Below, piece by piece: positions 44,033-55,234 of a stretch of DNA of 64,000 bases. Below the pieces are notes generated by a model, which ran no database searches, was not told where the DNA came from, and saw only the letters and a list, made by a program, of their open reading frames with translations. The stretch lies in the NCBI GenBank assembly GCA_005116745.1, contig SWDS01000006.1:855222-919221 (forward strand), in the 5' to 3' direction. The DNA is from Nitrospira sp. Its GTDB lineage: Bacteria; Nitrospirota; Nitrospiria; Nitrospirales; Nitrospiraceae. The stretch's first letter is position 1, and every line of letters starts with the position of its first letter. Made by a program: the position numbers and the translations under genes.

Positions 44033-44890
44033 ATGTTTGTTGTCCTAGGTGCAACGGGAAATACCGGATCTGCGGTGGTGGAGACCTTGCTGAGTAAGAA
44101 GCAGCCCGTGCGGGTGATTGTCCGTTCAGCCGACAAGGGTGCTGGCTGGAAGGCGAAAGGGGCAGATGTGGCTGTGGCATCGCTTGACGATGTGTCTGCG
44201 TTGACCAAGGCCTTTGAAGGGGCGAAAGGACTCTATTTGTTGGTACCACCGAATTACGGGGCTGAAGCCTGGTTGGCGGATCAACGACAAAGGATGGATC
44301 GCGCGGCAGAAGCTGTTCAGAAGAGTGGAGTCGATCATGTTGTGTTGCTGTCGTCGGTGGGAGGACATCTGCACGGTGGAACCGGCCCGATTCGGGCGGC
44401 GAGTCATGGAGAACAGGCGCTTGGTTGTCTTGCCAAACGCCTGACCATTCTCCGTCCCTGTTATTTCATGGACAACTGGGCGCCGGTCATTGGGGCGGCC
44501 AAGGCTCAGGGCGTGCTTCCGACATTCATTGCGCCTCAGGCAAAGATTCCTATGATTTCGACCAAGGACATCGGTCGGATTGGGGCGGAACGATTGATGA
44601 CTGGTGGCTATGGTAAGCAGATCGTGGAAATGGCGGGTCCGGAGGAGTACAGCCCAGATCAAACGGCGTCGGCACTCACTCAGATCCTTGGGAAAACGGT
44701 GACGGCCCAACATGCGCCGTTGAGTGCCGTGGTGCCGACGTTCACGTCGTTCGGGTTTTCAGACGAGGCGGCGAGATTATTTGAAGAAATGTACACGGCG
44801 TTCTCCAAAGGCGCAATCGGGTATGAGCACCCTGACAAGCTCGTGCGGGGTACAGTGACGCTGGAAGACGCGCTACGAACGATGGTGTGA
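44033..44890 (+). CDS. NmrA-like NAD(P)-binding protein
   Basis: 285 residues, an atypical SDR of the NmrA/HSCARG type. The nucleotide-binding FVVLGATGNTGSAVVETLL is at the N-terminus, VIVRSADKG determines cofactor choice, and VDHVVLLSSVGG lies near residue 105; no catalytic YxxxK is evident. Such proteins act as NADP(H) sensors or quinone reductases. It opens a five-gene operon whose other products (pirin, DsbA-like, VOC, NTF2-like) suggest handling of electrophiles or redox stress. AGGAGG precedes the start. Confidence 0.85.
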   Translation: MFVVLGATGNTGSAVVETLLSKKQPVRVIVRSADKGAGWKAKGADVAVASLDDVSALTKAFEGAKGLYLLVPPNYGAEAWLADQRQRMDRAAEAVQKSGVDHVVLLSSVGGHLHGGTGPIRAASHGEQALGCLAKRLTILRPCYFMDNWAPVIGAAKAQGVLPTFIAPQAKIPMISTKDIGRIGAERLMTGGYGKQIVEMAGPEEYSPDQTASALTQILGKTVTAQHAPLSAVVPTFTSFGFSDEAARLFEEMYTAFSKGAIGYEHPDKLVRGTVTLEDALRTMV

Positions 44891-44901
44891 AGGAGGACCA
44901 C

Positions 44902-45792
44902 ATGGCTACAGGGACGGCTGTAATCAAGGAAGTGCTCGGCGTCTATCCACCGGGGTCGAGGCATATGGTGGGAGATGGATTTCCTGTGAGGAACATGATT
45001 CCGGGCTCCGGTGTGGGTGAGCAATTGTCTCCATTCCTGCTCCTGGATTATATGGGGCCGGAGGTTTTCTCGCCGACGGATCGGCGTCTTGGTGTGGGTG
45101 AGCATCCGCATCGAGGGTTTGAAACTGTCACGATCATGTATCAAGGCAGTGTGGCGCATCGTGATTCAACCGGAAGCGGCGGCGTTATCGGCCCAGGTGA
45201 TGTGCAGTGGATGACGGCTGCATCCGGCATTGTGCATGAAGAATTGCACGAGAGCGAGTTTGCAAAGCGCGGAGGCACGCTGGAAGGGGTCCAGCTATGG
45301 GTCAATCTGCCGAGGTCGGTCAAGATGTCGCCTCCCCGGTACCAAACGCTTGTCCGCGATGAGATTCCGGTCGTTGAGCTCGCCGGAGGAGCCGGTCGGC
45401 TACGGGTCATTGCCGGAGAATGTCACGGGCGGAAGGGTCCGGCCAGGACCTTCAGCCCGGTCCATCTGTATGATCTGCGATTGAAGGCGGGGTGTCAGAC
45501 GGAATTGTCCTTGCCCGATGGATTCACCATGTCCGTATTTGTATTGCAGGGGCGGGTCGTTATCAACGGGGCACAGGCGGTGGGAGAGGCTGAGATCGCT
45601 CTCTTGGGGCGCAAGGGTGAGCGAGTGGCGCTTCAGGCGGAAGAGGATACGACGATACTTGTTCTCGGCGGAGAGCCGATCGAGGAGCCGATCGCGCGCT
45701 ATGGGCCGTTCGTCATGAATACGCAAGCGGAACTCGCACAAGCTGTGGAAGATTATCGAGCGGGCAAGATGGGGCATTTGTCCTATGAGTGA
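44902..45792 (+). CDS. Pirin family protein
   Basis: 296 residues from ATG 44902 with AAGGAGG upstream. It is a bicupin of the pirin/YhhW type: PFLLLDYMGPEVFSPTD, the metal ligands HPHRGFETVTIMYQG and IVHEELHESEF, then LEGVQLWVNLPRSVKMSPPRYQ. Bacterial pirins have quercetin dioxygenase-like or regulatory roles and bind iron. The gene follows nmrA by 11 nt and overlaps the DsbA-like gene by 8 nt, so it is translationally coupled. Confidence 0.92.
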   Translation: MATGTAVIKEVLGVYPPGSRHMVGDGFPVRNMIPGSGVGEQLSPFLLLDYMGPEVFSPTDRRLGVGEHPHRGFETVTIMYQGSVAHRDSTGSGGVIGPGDVQWMTAASGIVHEELHESEFAKRGGTLEGVQLWVNLPRSVKMSPPRYQTLVRDEIPVVELAGGAGRLRVIAGECHGRKGPARTFSPVHLYDLRLKAGCQTELSLPDGFTMSVFVLQGRVVINGAQAVGEAEIALLGRKGERVALQAEEDTTILVLGGEPIEEPIARYGPFVMNTQAELAQAVEDYRAGKMGHLSYE

Positions 45793-46456
45793 GCAGGATG
45801 CCGCACTCCACATCGACATTTACTCGGATGTGATCTGCCCCTGGTGCTATGTGGGGAAGCGGCGGCTGGAACGGGCACTCAAGGCATGGGATGGTGTACT
45901 TGCGACTATCCGATGGCGGCCCTTTCAATTGAACCCGACCATGCCGCGCAACGGGATGGATCGACGACAGTACCTTGACGCGAAGTTCGGTGGCTCTGCC
46001 GCCGCTCAAGCCATCTACGACCAAGTCTCGCGGGTTGGTGTTGAAGAAGGCATCCTCTTCGCGTTTGAGAGAATAGCTCGCACGCCGAACACATTCACCG
46101 CGCATCGCCTCATCTGGTTGGCGGGGCATCAGGGCAAACAGGATGAGATGGTCGAGATGCTGTTTCGCCAGTATTTCCTGGAGGGAGGAGATATCGGGAG
46201 TATCGAGACGTTGTCCAAAATTGCCGCTCATGCGGGGCTTGATCAAGCAGCGATTGAAACCTTTCTGGCGGGCGATGGGGGGATAGAAGCTGTGAAGGCA
46301 GAGGAAGCCGCTGGCCATCATATGGGCATACGAGGTGTTCCCTATTTCGTAATCAATGGAGCCTATGTGCTTTCCGGCGCGCAGCCTCCTGAACAGTTCT
46401 TAGCTGCATTCAGGCAGAGTGCAGCGGGCTTGTCAGTGGGAAAGGCAGGTGTGTAA
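45785..46456 (+). CDS. DsbA-family oxidoreductase (FrnE-like, cytoplasmic)
   Basis: 223 residues, no signal peptide. The N-terminus HIDIYSDVICPWCYVGKRRL has a CPWC active site. IRWRPFQLNPTMP and a late GIRGVPYFVINGAYVLSGAQ, with the cis-proline, complete the FrnE/2-hydroxychromene isomerase-like DsbA fold. It is likely a cytoplasmic thiol isomerase or oxidoreductase active in oxidative stress. It overlaps pirin by 8 nt and abuts the VOC gene (TAATG). Confidence 0.92.
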   Translation: MSEQDAALHIDIYSDVICPWCYVGKRRLERALKAWDGVLATIRWRPFQLNPTMPRNGMDRRQYLDAKFGGSAAAQAIYDQVSRVGVEEGILFAFERIARTPNTFTAHRLIWLAGHQGKQDEMVEMLFRQYFLEGGDIGSIETLSKIAAHAGLDQAAIETFLAGDGGIEAVKAEEAAGHHMGIRGVPYFVINGAYVLSGAQPPEQFLAAFRQSAAGLSVGKAGV

Positions 46457-46890
46457 TGGCCGTTCAAGTCTATGGTTGTAACCATGTCGTGATTGAAGTG
46501 ACCGATGCCAAGAAGGCCGCGAGGTTCTATCAAGATGTATTTGGGCTGAAGATGCTACGTGGTGGGGAAGGAGCGGTCTGGTGCAAGCTTGGAGAGCATC
46601 AGTTCCTGGCGATTTTTGAAGTGGAGGAATTGCAGCCGGATCGTATGAAACATTTTGGCTTGATGGTCCGGGACGCGCAACAGATCAAGGAAGTGCGCAA
46701 GAAGATGATCAACAAGTACAAGTTGAAACCGGCGTCCGACTTGCGATGCGATTTCCGCGATCCCTGGGGGAATCGTTTCCAGGTCGGCGATCTCAGCGAT
46801 GAATCGCTAGTCTGGCTGTTGCCGTATCGGGAAGTGCAGAAAACAGGCATTACATTCACCGGCAAATCGAACAAGGAGAAGAACGCATGA
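46456..46890 (+). CDS. VOC-family metalloprotein (glyoxalase/dioxygenase-like)
   Basis: 144 residues with one vicinal-oxygen-chelate fold: NHVVIEVTDAKKAARFYQDVFGLKML at the start, HQFLAIFEVEE, MKHFGLMVRDAQQI and CDFRDPWGNRFQVGDL. Likely metal ligands are His10, a residue in the QFLAIFEVEE strand and the later histidine. It may isomerise or open small electrophilic or aromatic substrates; the specific reaction is unknown. Its start overlaps the previous stop (TAATG) and its stop overlaps the next start (ATGA). Confidence 0.85.
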   Translation: MAVQVYGCNHVVIEVTDAKKAARFYQDVFGLKMLRGGEGAVWCKLGEHQFLAIFEVEELQPDRMKHFGLMVRDAQQIKEVRKKMINKYKLKPASDLRCDFRDPWGNRFQVGDLSDESLVWLLPYREVQKTGITFTGKSNKEKNA

Positions 46891-47258
46891 GCACCAGCAC
46901 TCTGCAGCAGCGGCTGAACGATCTGTTCGGCTACATCCGCCAAGGCAAGATCATTGAGGCCATGAGTGAGTTCTACGACAAGGATACTGTGATGCAGGAC
47001 AACGCCAATCCTCCAACAAAGGGGCTCGCGGCGAACATCGAGCGTGAAAAACAGTTCATGAGTGGTGTGAAGGAGTGGAAAGGGTTCAACGTCACGGCTC
47101 AGGGTGTGGGCGACAACGTGACCTTCTACGAATGCAGCCTCGACTTTATCGCGACGAGCGGGCAACCGGTTCACATGGAACAGGTCGTGGTGGCCAAGTG
47201 GAAGAATGGCAAGATCATTCATGAGCGGTTTTATTATGATACAGGCTCCAAGAGGTAA
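46887..47258 (+). CDS. NTF2/SnoaL-like domain protein
   Basis: 123 residues with the cone-shaped NTF2-like pattern: LNDLFGYIRQGKIIEAMSEFY at the start, DKDTVMQDN, then alternating strands (VTFYECSLDFIATSG, MEQVVVAKWKNGKIIHERFY). Members are small-molecule-binding proteins or isomerases. It is the last gene of the five-gene operon and overlaps the VOC gene by 4 nt. Confidence 0.85.
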   Translation: MSTSTLQQRLNDLFGYIRQGKIIEAMSEFYDKDTVMQDNANPPTKGLAANIEREKQFMSGVKEWKGFNVTAQGVGDNVTFYECSLDFIATSGQPVHMEQVVVAKWKNGKIIHERFYYDTGSKR

Positions 47259-47457: not shown

Positions 47458-49536
47458 ATGGGCATGCATGGCAACGCCATACGACGCGTGATGGTGGGTA
47501 CGGACCGCTCCAAAACGGCAGACCACGCTGTTCAGTGGGCCGCTGAGTTCGCCAACCGCTATGGGGCAGAGCTGTTTGTGGCGCAGGTGATCGTGCCGAA
47601 CCACCCGGCCACCACGGAATTCGGCGCAGCTGAACATACGCGAGCCGCTGCCGCCAATGAGGAGCTTGCACAGGTCGTGAGGCAGCTGGCTGGAGAGCGA
47701 GGGCATGCTCTTGTCATCATAGATTCCGATCCGGCATTGGCAATCGTCCGTGCCGCTGAGAGCGAAGCCATTGATGTCCTGGTGGTTGGTAATTCGGGCA
47801 TGGCCGGACGAAAGGAGTTCTTGCTCGGTAACGTACCGAATCGCATCAGCCACAATTCCCATTGCACCGTCATTATTGTGAATACCCTCCTGTCCAGAGG
47901 TGAGCAGGTTCCTGAATCGGTGCGAGTGCTTCAGTCCAAGGGTGAATCTCACACGTCTGAGCCTCACCTGGCGGGACGAGCCATGCATATCGCGACGGTC
48001 ATGGCGAAGCATGGCCTCAAGGAGCTCTTCAGCCAGCCCGATCAATCAGACGGATCCATTCGCCGTCAGCAGGCCAAGCGCCTACGCACGGCGCTGGAGG
48101 AACTGGGCCCGACCTTTTCAAAGCTCGGCCAGGTGCTGTCGACCCGCCCGGATCTCCTTCCTGCGGAATACATCGAAGAACTCGCGATGTTGCAGAGTCA
48201 CGTGCCTCCCATGTCCGAGCGTGAAGTCGTTCGAGTCGCTGAACAAGAGTTGGGGGTGCCGTGGGAGGATGTGTTTGAGTCGATCGATCCCAAACCACTC
48301 GCCGCCGGGACCATTGCCCAAGTCCATCGGGCCACACTCGAACACGGCGACCGAGTCGTCGTCAAAGTTCAACGACCCACTGCCCGAGTGGACATCGAGC
48401 AGGATCTCGCCCTGCTCGAGATATTCGCTCAGAAAGTCGGGCAACGTCAGGCCCTCAACCAAGTAGTGAATATGGAGGCGGTATTCAAGCACCTCTCCAC
48501 GTCGCTCCAGCGTGAACTCGACTTTTGCCAAGAAGTTGAGAATATCGGGCGGATGCAGACCGTGCTCACAGACTATGATCGGTTGGCGGTCCCCGCTGTG
48601 TATCGGGAGCTGTCGACGTCTCGCTTATTGGTGATGGAGGAGATTCAAGGCGGCCCGATCGCACAGGCGCCGGAAGGCCAGGAGCGTATCGAGGCGGCCC
48701 GCCAGCTGTTGGAAAGTTTCTACAAGCAGATCGTCGTCGACGGTTTCTTCCATGCCGATCCTCACCCGGGCAATCTCATGTGGTGGAAGAACCGCATTTA
48801 CATTCTCGACTTTGGAATGGTCGGCGCCATCGATGCCAGCGTACGGGAACATCTCATGTTGTTGCTGATGGCTCTGTGGAAGGAAGATGTGGTGTTTCTC
48901 AGCGATGTCACGCTGATGATGACGGGTGCGATCGACCGCAGTGATCTGGACGTCCAACGGTTTCAAAGCGAAGTCGGTGACGTGATGGCGAAATACCGCA
49001 AGGCGGCTCTCGCCGAGATGCAGATCGGACCGCTGTTGCAGGAAATGAGCACAATCGCATTTCGGCACGGCGTGCCGATGCCGGCGTCGCTGACACTCGC
49101 AGCCAAGGCGCTGGCGCAGGTCCAACTGGCGACGGCGAATCTCGATCCAAAACTCGATCCATATGACGTCGCCGGCAAGTTTTTGATGCGCGTCATGATC
49201 AAGCGCATGGGAGCCGCGCTCGATCCCAAAGCACTCGCATACCAGGTGCAAAAGTTTAAAGTACGAGCCGAACGGGTGACCGAAGCGATCGAACACCTGA
49301 TCGGTGCTCGTCCCGGTCAGAAACTTGTGGTGAATTTCAAGGCCAATTCGCTCGAAGAGATGGTTCGACGGACGGGACGGCGCCTTGCGCTGGGCGTTGC
49401 CGCTGCAACAAGCATCCTCTCTAGTGCGCTCACGGTCATGTCGGGAACAGTTGCAGATTGGATACCGGTCACGTTTGGGATCGTCGCCGGACTGCTGACC
49501 CTTGGACTGGTCTTCGATCTCATGCGGGGACGTTGA
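47458..49536 (+). CDS. Fusion of universal stress protein and UbiB/ABC1-type kinase
   Basis: 692 residues. Residues about 8-142 are a UspA domain (VMVGTDRSKTADHAVQWAAE, VLVVGNSGMAG, FLLGNVPNRISHN) with a near-complete ATP-binding loop. Residues about 205-600 are a UbiB/ABC1 atypical kinase: KLGQ at 222-225, AAGTIAQVH at 282-290, VKVQRP at 302-307, HADPHPGN at 432-439 and DFG at 451-453. Two C-terminal hydrophobic helices (about 640-688) probably anchor it to the membrane. UbiB proteins support ubiquinone or menaquinone biosynthesis and lipid homeostasis; the Usp half may sense ATP or stress. This domain order is uncommon to my knowledge. It appears monocistronic. Confidence 0.9.
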   Translation: MGMHGNAIRRVMVGTDRSKTADHAVQWAAEFANRYGAELFVAQVIVPNHPATTEFGAAEHTRAAAANEELAQVVRQLAGERGHALVIIDSDPALAIVRAAESEAIDVLVVGNSGMAGRKEFLLGNVPNRISHNSHCTVIIVNTLLSRGEQVPESVRVLQSKGESHTSEPHLAGRAMHIATVMAKHGLKELFSQPDQSDGSIRRQQAKRLRTALEELGPTFSKLGQVLSTRPDLLPAEYIEELAMLQSHVPPMSEREVVRVAEQELGVPWEDVFESIDPKPLAAGTIAQVHRATLEHGDRVVVKVQRPTARVDIEQDLALLEIFAQKVGQRQALNQVVNMEAVFKHLSTSLQRELDFCQEVENIGRMQTVLTDYDRLAVPAVYRELSTSRLLVMEEIQGGPIAQAPEGQERIEAARQLLESFYKQIVVDGFFHADPHPGNLMWWKNRIYILDFGMVGAIDASVREHLMLLLMALWKEDVVFLSDVTLMMTGAIDRSDLDVQRFQSEVGDVMAKYRKAALAEMQIGPLLQEMSTIAFRHGVPMPASLTLAAKALAQVQLATANLDPKLDPYDVAGKFLMRVMIKRMGAALDPKALAYQVQKFKVRAERVTEAIEHLIGARPGQKLVVNFKANSLEEMVRRTGRRLALGVAAATSILSSALTVMSGTVADWIPVTFGIVAGLLTLGLVFDLMRGR

Positions 49537-49569: not shown

Positions 49570-49773
49570 CTACGATTTGGTTTTGTCGCTTCTGATCGAG
49601 CGTAGGACGGCTCTCTCGAGTACGTAGGCGACCACCGACATTCCGATCGAGATGAGTCGATGTTCGATGTGCCGGATGATGCTCCGATGAGCGGTCTTTG
49701 CTGGGGAAGCACCGTTGGCCATGGCGATATTATCACTCAACGTGTCACCGGCTGCAAGAAGCCATGACTCCAT
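49570..49773 (-). CDS. Possible small protein
   Basis: A 67-codon frame with a predicted helical C-terminus (SIGMSVVAYVLERAVLRS), antiparallel to its neighbours in a 270-bp gap. It has no recognised family and a weak ribosome-binding site. It could equally be a spurious frame. Confidence 0.25.
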   Translation of the reverse strand: MESWLLAAGDTLSDNIAMANGASPAKTAHRSIIRHIEHRLISIGMSVVAYVLERAVLRSIRSDKTKS

Positions 49774-53253: not shown

Positions 53254-54009
53254 ATGCAGCTGACCATTCTTGGGTCCGGGACCAATGTGCACCCGAGCCG
53301 TGCCGCCGCCGGCTATCTGGTGCGCACGGATCACGATATTCTGCTGGATTTTGGTCCGCGCACCTTGATGAATCTCATCAAAACCGGCGTGGATCGAAAT
53401 CAGATCACCCACATTCTGATCTCCCATTTTCACGCGGACCATTTTTCAGATTTCATCACTTTTTTCTTCGACGCGGTGATCTTCACCAAGTATCAGGGCG
53501 GGAAACGGCCGCCGCTCACCATCATCGGTCCGCCGGGGACAAAAAGTCTCTTCAAGGTTCTGTTCGCGACGCTCCCAGGCTTTAGCCGCGCACCGTTCGG
53601 CGTGACGTTGAAGGAAGTCCATGATCGGCCATTCTGGATCGGGAAGACGAAGATTCTCCCACAACGAGTCATCCACAGTCCCCGTTTGCACTGTTTGGGC
53701 TACAGACTTGAATATGACGGGAAAGCACTGGCGTATTCAGGAGACTCGCAATATTGCCGCAGTCTGGTTCGACTCTGCGGAGATGCAGATCTTGCTGTTC
53801 TGGATTGTTCGTTCCCAGCTAATCGACCAGGCCCTGTGCATTTGCATGCCGGACAATGTGGCCAGGTCGCTCAGGAGGCCTCCGTCGGCCAGCTCGTACT
53901 ATCCCATTTCTATCCCATTGCGGATCGGTATGATGTAAAAGCGCAAGCGGGGGAACAGTATGGAGGGAAGATCTGGAAGGGAAAGGATGGGATGACGATA
54001 CGGCTTTAG
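53254..54009 (+). CDS. MBL-fold metallohydrolase (RNase Z-like)
   Basis: 251 residues. Metal-binding motifs are HFHADH near residue 58-63, SGDSQYC with the bridging aspartate near 163, and LSHFYP near 221; HLHAGQCGQVA (about 196-206) supplies a further histidine. The N-terminus MQLTILGSGTNVHPSRAAAG is typical of ribonuclease-Z/ElaC-like MBL proteins. It lacks the exosite of true RNase Z, so tRNA 3' processing is uncertain; phosphodiesters or other esters are alternatives. A palindrome follows its stop. Confidence 0.87.
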   Translation: MQLTILGSGTNVHPSRAAAGYLVRTDHDILLDFGPRTLMNLIKTGVDRNQITHILISHFHADHFSDFITFFFDAVIFTKYQGGKRPPLTIIGPPGTKSLFKVLFATLPGFSRAPFGVTLKEVHDRPFWIGKTKILPQRVIHSPRLHCLGYRLEYDGKALAYSGDSQYCRSLVRLCGDADLAVLDCSFPANRPGPVHLHAGQCGQVAQEASVGQLVLSHFYPIADRYDVKAQAGEQYGGKIWKGKDGMTIRL

Positions 54010-54127: not shown

Positions 54128-55234
54128 ATGCCGGATGCGGAATGGACCGATGTTGGAAGCGTTGAAGAACTGAAACAGAAGCCGCTGCAGGCAATCTCTT
54201 TCAGTAAGACAACCATCGCCCTGACGTACAAGGATGGTGCATTTGCCGCGATCTCCGGAGTCTGCAATCACGCAGGTGGTCCGTTGGGGGAAGGTCAGCT
54301 CGCCGGCGACTATGTCGTTTGTCCCTGGCATTACTGGAAGTTCCACCACAAAACTGGTCAGGGCGAAGCAGGGTACGAACAAGATCAGGTACCTGCCTAC
54401 ACGATCAAGATTGAGAATGGCCGTGTGTATATCGATTTGTCATCCGCGACAAAGCGCAAGAAGCAGGCTCACAAACCGCACCCTTTGGCCAGACCAGTCG
54501 TCCGCCAGGCAGGACCGATCCGGGTTGTGGGGATCTCGACCACGGCGATGACGCGTGACCATCCGCGCTTCAGCGGATCGGATGCATTGCTTGAAGCGGC
54601 GTTAGACCATGCGCGGCGCAAGCTACAACTTGAGACCCAGTACATCAAGTTGCGGGATCTGAACTTTCGCCCATGCGAGGGCTACTATTCCAAATCGGCG
54701 AAGGCCTGTACCTGGCCCTGTTCGATCACGCAACTGGACCCGACGGATCAGCTCGACCGCGTGTATGAAGCGATCGTCCATTGGGCCGATGTGATTTTGA
54801 TCGCCACGCCGATTCGTTGGGGTAACGCCAGCAGCCTGTATTACAAAATGGTTGAGCGGATGAACTGTATTCAAAACCAGGAGACGATCGCGAACAAGCA
54901 CCTGCTCAAGAATAAAGTGGCGGCATTCATCATTATGGGCGGCCAAGACAATGTCCAAGGCGTAGCCGGACAGCTCATGACATTTTTTGCCGAAGTCGGC
55001 TGCCAGTTTCCACAGTTCCCGTTCATCGCCCATTCGAGAGGTTGGAGCGCCGAGGACATGGAGCGAAATGTGGTCGAAGTGCAGAACAGTCGAGAGCTGC
55101 GTGAGGGAGCGCAGGAGCTTGTGGCCCGTGCTGTGGATATGGCCGAGTTGATGGTCGCCGGTCAACTACCTGAGCACCCGCTTGCCCGGGGTGGGCGCAA
55201 GGCGCATCAGCTTGACAGTGAGCCGACTGGGTAA
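54128..55234 (+). CDS. Fusion of Rieske [2Fe-2S] domain and flavodoxin-like NAD(P)H-dependent FMN reductase
   Basis: 368 residues. The N-terminal domain (about 1-105) has a full Rieske motif, C46-x-H48 and C65-x-x-H68 (CNHAGG and CPWHYWKF). The C-terminal domain (about 132-345) is a flavodoxin-like FMN reductase: RVVGISTTAM, DVILIATPIRWGNASSLYYKMVER and AAFIIMGGQDNVQG. Between them lie C183, C194 and C198, reminiscent of the compact cysteine cluster of iron-sulfur flavoproteins. Thus one chain may hold a flavin and one or two Fe-S centres for internal electron transfer. The substrate is unknown. It starts a small operon with 55247 and 55675. Confidence 0.85.
   Translation: MPDAEWTDVGSVEELKQKPLQAISFSKTTIALTYKDGAFAAISGVCNHAGGPLGEGQLAGDYVVCPWHYWKFHHKTGQGEAGYEQDQVPAYTIKIENGRVYIDLSSATKRKKQAHKPHPLARPVVRQAGPIRVVGISTTAMTRDHPRFSGSDALLEAALDHARRKLQLETQYIKLRDLNFRPCEGYYSKSAKACTWPCSITQLDPTDQLDRVYEAIVHWADVILIATPIRWGNASSLYYKMVERMNCIQNQETIANKHLLKNKVAAFIIMGGQDNVQGVAGQLMTFFAEVGCQFPQFPFIAHSRGWSAEDMERNVVEVQNSRELREGAQELVARAVDMAELMVAGQLPEHPLARGGRKAHQLDSEPTG

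Follow-up and report, generated by a model that had tools for sequence, protein, structure and literature searches.

In the window, a 64,000-nucleotide stretch of the Nitrospira sp. contig SWDS01000006.1, a single gene encodes a universal stress protein (Usp) domain followed by a UbiB/ABC1 kinase-like domain. The preliminary description had placed a Usp domain and a complete UbiB kinase-like domain in one 692-residue chain, and reading frame and Pfam agreed with this: the 692 codons are uninterrupted, with no internal stop, and the protein matched PF00582 (Usp; E 3e-27, 96 bits against a cut-off of 24) and PF03109 (ABC1; E 2e-62, 211 bits against a curated cut-off of 22.9). The two membrane helices noted earlier were also recovered, as C-terminal hydrophobic stretches at approximately residues 643-661 and 664-691, and this hairpin is probably a membrane anchor. 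Translation may start at M1 or M3, and homologues align from residues 2-8. An AlphaFold2 model built with 24 close homologues had a mean pLDDT of 45 and a pTM of 0.31, and was set aside. The features of the locus are listed in Table 1.

Table 1. Features of the fusion gene and its neighbours; positions are those of the window.
Feature	Position	Strand	Basis or detail
Usp-UbiB/ABC1 fusion protein, 692 aa	47458..49536	+	ORF, Pfam, full-length conservation in two phyla
Usp domain, residues 8-141	47479..47880	+	G14 and G111 correspond to G10 and G113, the glycines of Rv1636 that contact cAMP
KxGQ motif, residues 222-225	48121..48132	+	Invariant; hallmark of the UbiB N-terminal extension
ABC1 kinase-like domain, residues 245-478	48190..48891	+	K303, ExD 353-355, E359, D434, N439, DFG 451-453
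Ala-rich loop A-A-G-T, residues 282-285	48301..48312	+	Invariant in all fused copies
C-terminal hydrophobic hairpin	49384..49530	+	Hydropathy
Conserved 50-codon ORF, converging on the fusion 3' end	49570..49722	-	One hydrophobic segment
SAM - class III nucleotide cyclase - AAA - TPR protein, 1132 aa	49807..53205	+	Conserved neighbour
MBL-fold hydrolase	53254..54009	+	Distantly matches the model of a cyclic-nucleotide phosphodiesterase (121 bits, cut-off 400)

Upstream of the fusion, a run of genes on the same strand (44033-47258) encodes NmrA, pirin, DsbA-like, glyoxalase-like and SnoaL-like proteins, and is absent at most related fusion loci. Further downstream, a single ORF (54128-55234, forward strand) encodes a Rieske domain and, behind it, a domain resembling NADPH-dependent FMN reductases. 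A scan of the locus for promoters and terminators gave nothing better than shuffled sequences.

A protein scan of GTDB contigs yielded 28 close homologues, nearly all from Nitrospira, which aligned essentially end to end. The fusion was one continuous ORF in 25 of the 28 Nitrospira-type contigs; two others were cut by contig ends, and the remaining one (L054) carried a frameshift in the Usp part. Continuous fusions were also present in 11 Nitrosomonadaceae genomes. In both domains dN was about one tenth of dS, with relaxation only in the linker (residues 144-175), indicating that selection keeps the two halves together in a single gene. It is extremely unlikely that two separate genes were joined here through sequencing or prediction error. 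The frameshift in L054 and short Usp remnants that adjoin the cyclase in two genomes could be read in that way, but dozens of assemblies, drawn from two phyla, show an unbroken ORF, purifying selection acts on both domains, and an unfused ABC1 of this type is absent in Nitrospira. The Usp-UbiB fusion is therefore confirmed as a real and maintained gene.

A profile search detected the fusion in 39 of 79 Nitrospira-genus genomes, two of these copies being cut by contig ends. Among 125 Nitrosomonadaceae genomes, a sample reached through an amoA search, we found 11 full fusions and one split copy. The family label was inferred from three amoA copies in one genome (G316), and was confirmed when a genome of the same family (G853) matched the plasmid of Nitrosomonas sp. 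sh817 at identical coordinates. No genome from other genera of the Nitrospira family in the phylum sample had a full-length ABC1 match, and the fusion was not found in the 398 Pseudomonadota and 199 Acidobacteriota genomes sampled, apart from one MAG contig. This 4-kb contig, from a MAG labelled Pyrinomonadaceae (L052, 1671-3740), carries a fusion 86% identical to the Nitrosomonadaceae copies and is probably a binning error. The full fusion was absent from plasmid and phage collections. A truncated copy lies on the conjugative plasmid of Nitrosomonas sp. sh817 (NZ_CP133084.1; L073, 8001-8759); it breaks off shortly beyond the KxGQ motif, about 238 homologous residues in, and adjoins a hydrolase-cyclase gene on its upstream side and insertion sequences. 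The systematic genome searches covered Nitrospira and its family, Nitrosomonadaceae, and the Pseudomonadota and Acidobacteriota samples, and we do not claim that the fusion is restricted to nitrifiers. Nor is the architecture new, having been known since 2005, when a survey of prokaryotic kinases stated that Nitrosomonas europaea encodes a kinase of the ABC1 family bearing a Usp domain at its N-terminus (PMC1262709). A literature search found no paper characterising a Usp-ABC1 fusion.

Quinones should be essential to all these bacteria of the Nitrospira family, and the preliminary description had proposed that the fusion tunes quinone supply to stress. The fusion could then be the organism's UbiB, an accessory of methyl-plastoquinone biosynthesis tuned by a Usp stress sensor: it has the ABC1 fold, the KxGQ motif and a C-terminal hairpin as in UbiB, and is the sole ABC1 gene of this genome, which is 99.96% complete. 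However, full-length ABC1 was lacking from 8 of the 14 Nitrospira-genus genomes in the phylum sample, all of them 99% complete, and the fusion itself is absent from many near-complete Nitrospira genomes, although these relatives would be expected to make quinones. In Nitrosomonadaceae, a UbiB-like match was present in 121 of 125 genomes and the fusion in only 12, and all 12 carriers encode at least one UbiB-like protein besides it. The fusion scored 325 bits against the UbiB equivalog model TIGR01982, below its cut-off of 487.55; it has a glycine in the Ala-rich loop, and its linkage is to cyclases and not to quinone genes. Given the near-complete relatives without ABC1, the separate UbiB-like genes, the equivalog score and the Ala-to-Gly change, stress-tuned quinone supply is not supported; the fusion does not appear to be a quinone-biosynthesis gene, and we consider it improbable that it serves as the UbiB of this organism. 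Cultured Nitrospira contain methyl-plastoquinones only (PMC12324825), in line with which PF02621, of the futalosine pathway, was absent from all 79 Nitrospira-genus genomes; MenD matches in these genomes all fell below the cut-off and were uninformative as a test of menaquinone synthesis. The earlier appeal to low-potential respiration was not apt, as the same study describes nitrite oxidation that bypasses quinones.

The KxGQ motif and the catalytic positions K303, ExD, E359, D434, N439 and DFG were invariant among fusion homologues. The Ala-rich loop departed from the AAAS of the UbiB/ABC1 superfamily, reading AAGT in every fused copy. Alignment to COQ8A placed G284 at the equivalent of A339, and the distance of 19 residues to the catalytic lysine agreed with this. 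AAAS was found in 49 of 62 unfused ABC1 proteins, and a third-position glycine in one of the 62 as well as in one of four plasmid proteins, that is, in two of about 66 unfused proteins sampled. In human COQ8A the A339G substitution results in ATP preference and autophosphorylation (PMC4718504), and the same Ala-to-Gly change in yeast Coq8, A197G, lowers CoQ content (PMC7263595). The presence of G284 in a complete kinase core predicts an ATP-using enzyme, and the fused kinase would be ATP-competent.

We surveyed 39 fusion loci for their neighbours. All 37 loci whose contig extended far enough on the side concerned had a class III cyclase within 2 kb of the fusion, the contigs of the other two ending at the fusion; the loci are related by descent, and these linkage counts are not independent. 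Three cyclase architectures were seen near the fusion, SAM-cyclase-AAA-TPR, CHASE2-cyclase and hydrolase-cyclase. The SAM-type cyclase came after the fusion, in the same orientation, at 18 of 26 Nitrospira loci and at 11 loci of Nitrosomonadaceae, while the remaining neighbours differed between the two groups. In a second type of Nitrospira locus (n = 7; L037, L040-L043, L059 and L163) a CHASE2-type cyclase lies near the fusion; in several of these a cNMP_binding-domain gene lies alongside, and the SAM-type cyclase is found elsewhere in the genome. Across whole genomes, fusion and SAM-type cyclase also occurred together: in Nitrospira 37 genomes had both, 2 the fusion only, 5 the cyclase only and 35 neither, and in Nitrosomonadaceae 12 had both, none was mismatched and 113 had neither (Fisher p = 1e-14 and 6e-17, respectively, values overstated because the genomes are related). 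The two genes were not adjacent in the assembly of 13 Nitrospira genomes. Two of these 13 have decayed Usp pieces immediately before the SAM-type cyclase (L172, 2379-2666; L173, 2205-2421), with an intact fusion at another locus. A 24-residue remnant of a small ORF that elsewhere accompanies the fusion was retained at four cyclase loci with no fusion next to them. Together, the Usp pieces and small-ORF remnants suggest that fusion and cyclase were originally linked. Only in Nitrospira, and there at many loci, is the cyclase followed by the MBL-fold hydrolase, whose membership of the module is uncertain.

The gap between fusion and cyclase contains a block conserved across Nitrospira and Nitrosomonadaceae, which proved to be this small ORF. 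It was missed in the first reading and accompanies the fusion more constantly than any other partner, lying downstream of it at all 53 loci where the sequence ran on far enough to tell, in both groups and with either cyclase type. Substitutions were distributed over its three codon positions as 0.30/0.17/0.53; its frame had no stop in 23 sequences, and the other frames were less conserved and mostly interrupted by stops. The small ORF had no Pfam match and no match in the plasmid collection. Since it lies between fusion and cyclase on the opposite strand, these two genes do not form a simple operon. Comparative genomics showed that the fusion is linked to cyclases and to the small ORF.

In trees of the Usp, kinase and cyclase sequences, each a quick tree with support of 80 to 100, the Nitrosomonadaceae copies formed one group whose nearest relative was a single Nitrospira copy (L160). 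The module therefore appears, from the agreement of these trees, to have moved as a unit between Nitrospira and Nitrosomonadaceae, probably once. Patchy distribution, transfer between phyla and the truncated plasmid copy could also be expected of a mobile defence-like module, a Pycsar-like cyclase plus effector moving between nitrifiers. PycC models did match the cyclase, but these matches were limited to its generic class III cyclase domain, and a PycC cyclase paired with a cyclic-nucleotide-gated effector was not found. PADLOC returned no match for the fusion and no defence match for the hydrolase, and stable chromosomal genes surround most Nitrospira loci. We regard a defence role as very unlikely.

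By sequence, the closest solved structure to the Usp domain was Rv1636, a cAMP-binding Usp, although its margin over other Usp structures was small. The equivalents of the Rv1636 contact glycines, G14 and G111, were invariant among fused copies. Glycines at these two positions take part in ATP binding in other Usp proteins as well. The textbook loop of ATP-binding Usp proteins is GxxG-x9-G(S/T). In the fusion the loop, described as ATP-binding-like in the preliminary description, reads GxxG-x9-GN, with G111, G114 and G124 invariant and N125 in place of S/T. We infer that the Usp domain binds nucleotide, either ATP or the cyclic nucleotide of the neighbouring cyclase.

The best-supported reading is that the fusion is a signalling kinase within the UbiB/ABC1 superfamily, accessory in role and anchored in the membrane, which belongs to a cyclic-nucleotide stress module and not to quinone synthesis. 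Our confidence in this is evenly balanced; it draws on the cyclase linkage, genome co-occurrence, concordant trees and complete motifs with the AAGT loop, together with the Rv1636-like Usp domain with its contact glycines and the cNMP_binding gene beside several CHASE2-type loci. The Usp domain would bind ATP or a cyclase-made cyclic nucleotide, the nucleotide-bound domain would gate the ATP-using kinase domain at the membrane, and kinase and cyclase would take part in a single pathway responding to stress or energy status.

Proteins of the COQ8 type work on membrane lipids, and do so as ATPases and not as protein kinases; the fusion could likewise be a COQ8/ABC1K-like ATPase or kinase of a membrane lipid or small molecule, with the Usp domain setting ATP use and the cyclase a separate stress gene carried along. 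This family behaviour and the hydrophobic hairpin would suit such an enzyme, as would the separation of fusion and SAM-type cyclase in some Nitrospira genomes, but the genomes with unlinked genes still keep both, and the unlinked fusions adjoin another cyclase type. We consider it a genuine, if lesser, possibility. A more specific form of the signalling-kinase interpretation is rather doubtful: that the Usp domain acts as receptor for the neighbouring cyclase's product and switches a naturally ATP-competent UbiB kinase at the membrane, with the small membrane protein as an obligate third component, the module having been transferred between ammonia oxidisers and nitrite oxidisers.

Several known systems resemble parts of this arrangement. 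The Nitrosomonas europaea kinase of the 2005 survey has the same order of an N-terminal Usp and an ABC1 domain, and its host family also has full fusions here; the available portion of that survey gives the architecture only, to which the present analysis adds the cyclase, the small ORF, the glycine loop, the Nitrospira distribution and the transfer between phyla. The fusion keeps the G10 and G113 equivalents and the VVGNxG segment of Rv1636/MSMEG_3811 (PMC11107214); unlike it, these are free-standing actinobacterial proteins, and cAMP binding by the fusion is a candidate property. KdpD (PMC4686210) has a Usp domain inside a kinase protein as receptor for a nucleotide messenger, similar to the role proposed here, but is a histidine kinase and responds to c-di-AMP. 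Plant Usp-protein kinase fusions (PMC3673472) also combine the two in one chain, with a eukaryotic-type PF00069 kinase domain that lacks UbiB features. With UbiB, COQ8A and Coq8 the fusion shares KxGQ, ExD, the catalytic Lys, Asp and Asn, DFG and a hydrophobic C-terminus, and differs in the glycine for the third alanine, in the Usp domain and in not being required for quinones, as judged by distribution. The cyclase-AAA-TPR part of the neighbour aligns to positions 277-1264 of the TOMM kinase/cyclase model TIGR03903, at 589 bits against a cut-off of 705.75, leaving the N-terminal 276 positions unmatched and no kinase part; in TIGR03903 the kinase is fused to the cyclase, whereas the kinase-like protein of this locus is encoded by a gene of its own near the cyclase.

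The biochemical role of the UbiB family is a long-standing open question. The fusion would represent a natural UbiB branch carrying the COQ8A-activating substitution known from engineering, set apart from quinone synthesis by its distribution and having a defined signalling partner. It is a case in which a regulatory job for a protein of the UbiB fold can be put to the test, in what would be a signalling module common to two bacterial groups that nitrify together.
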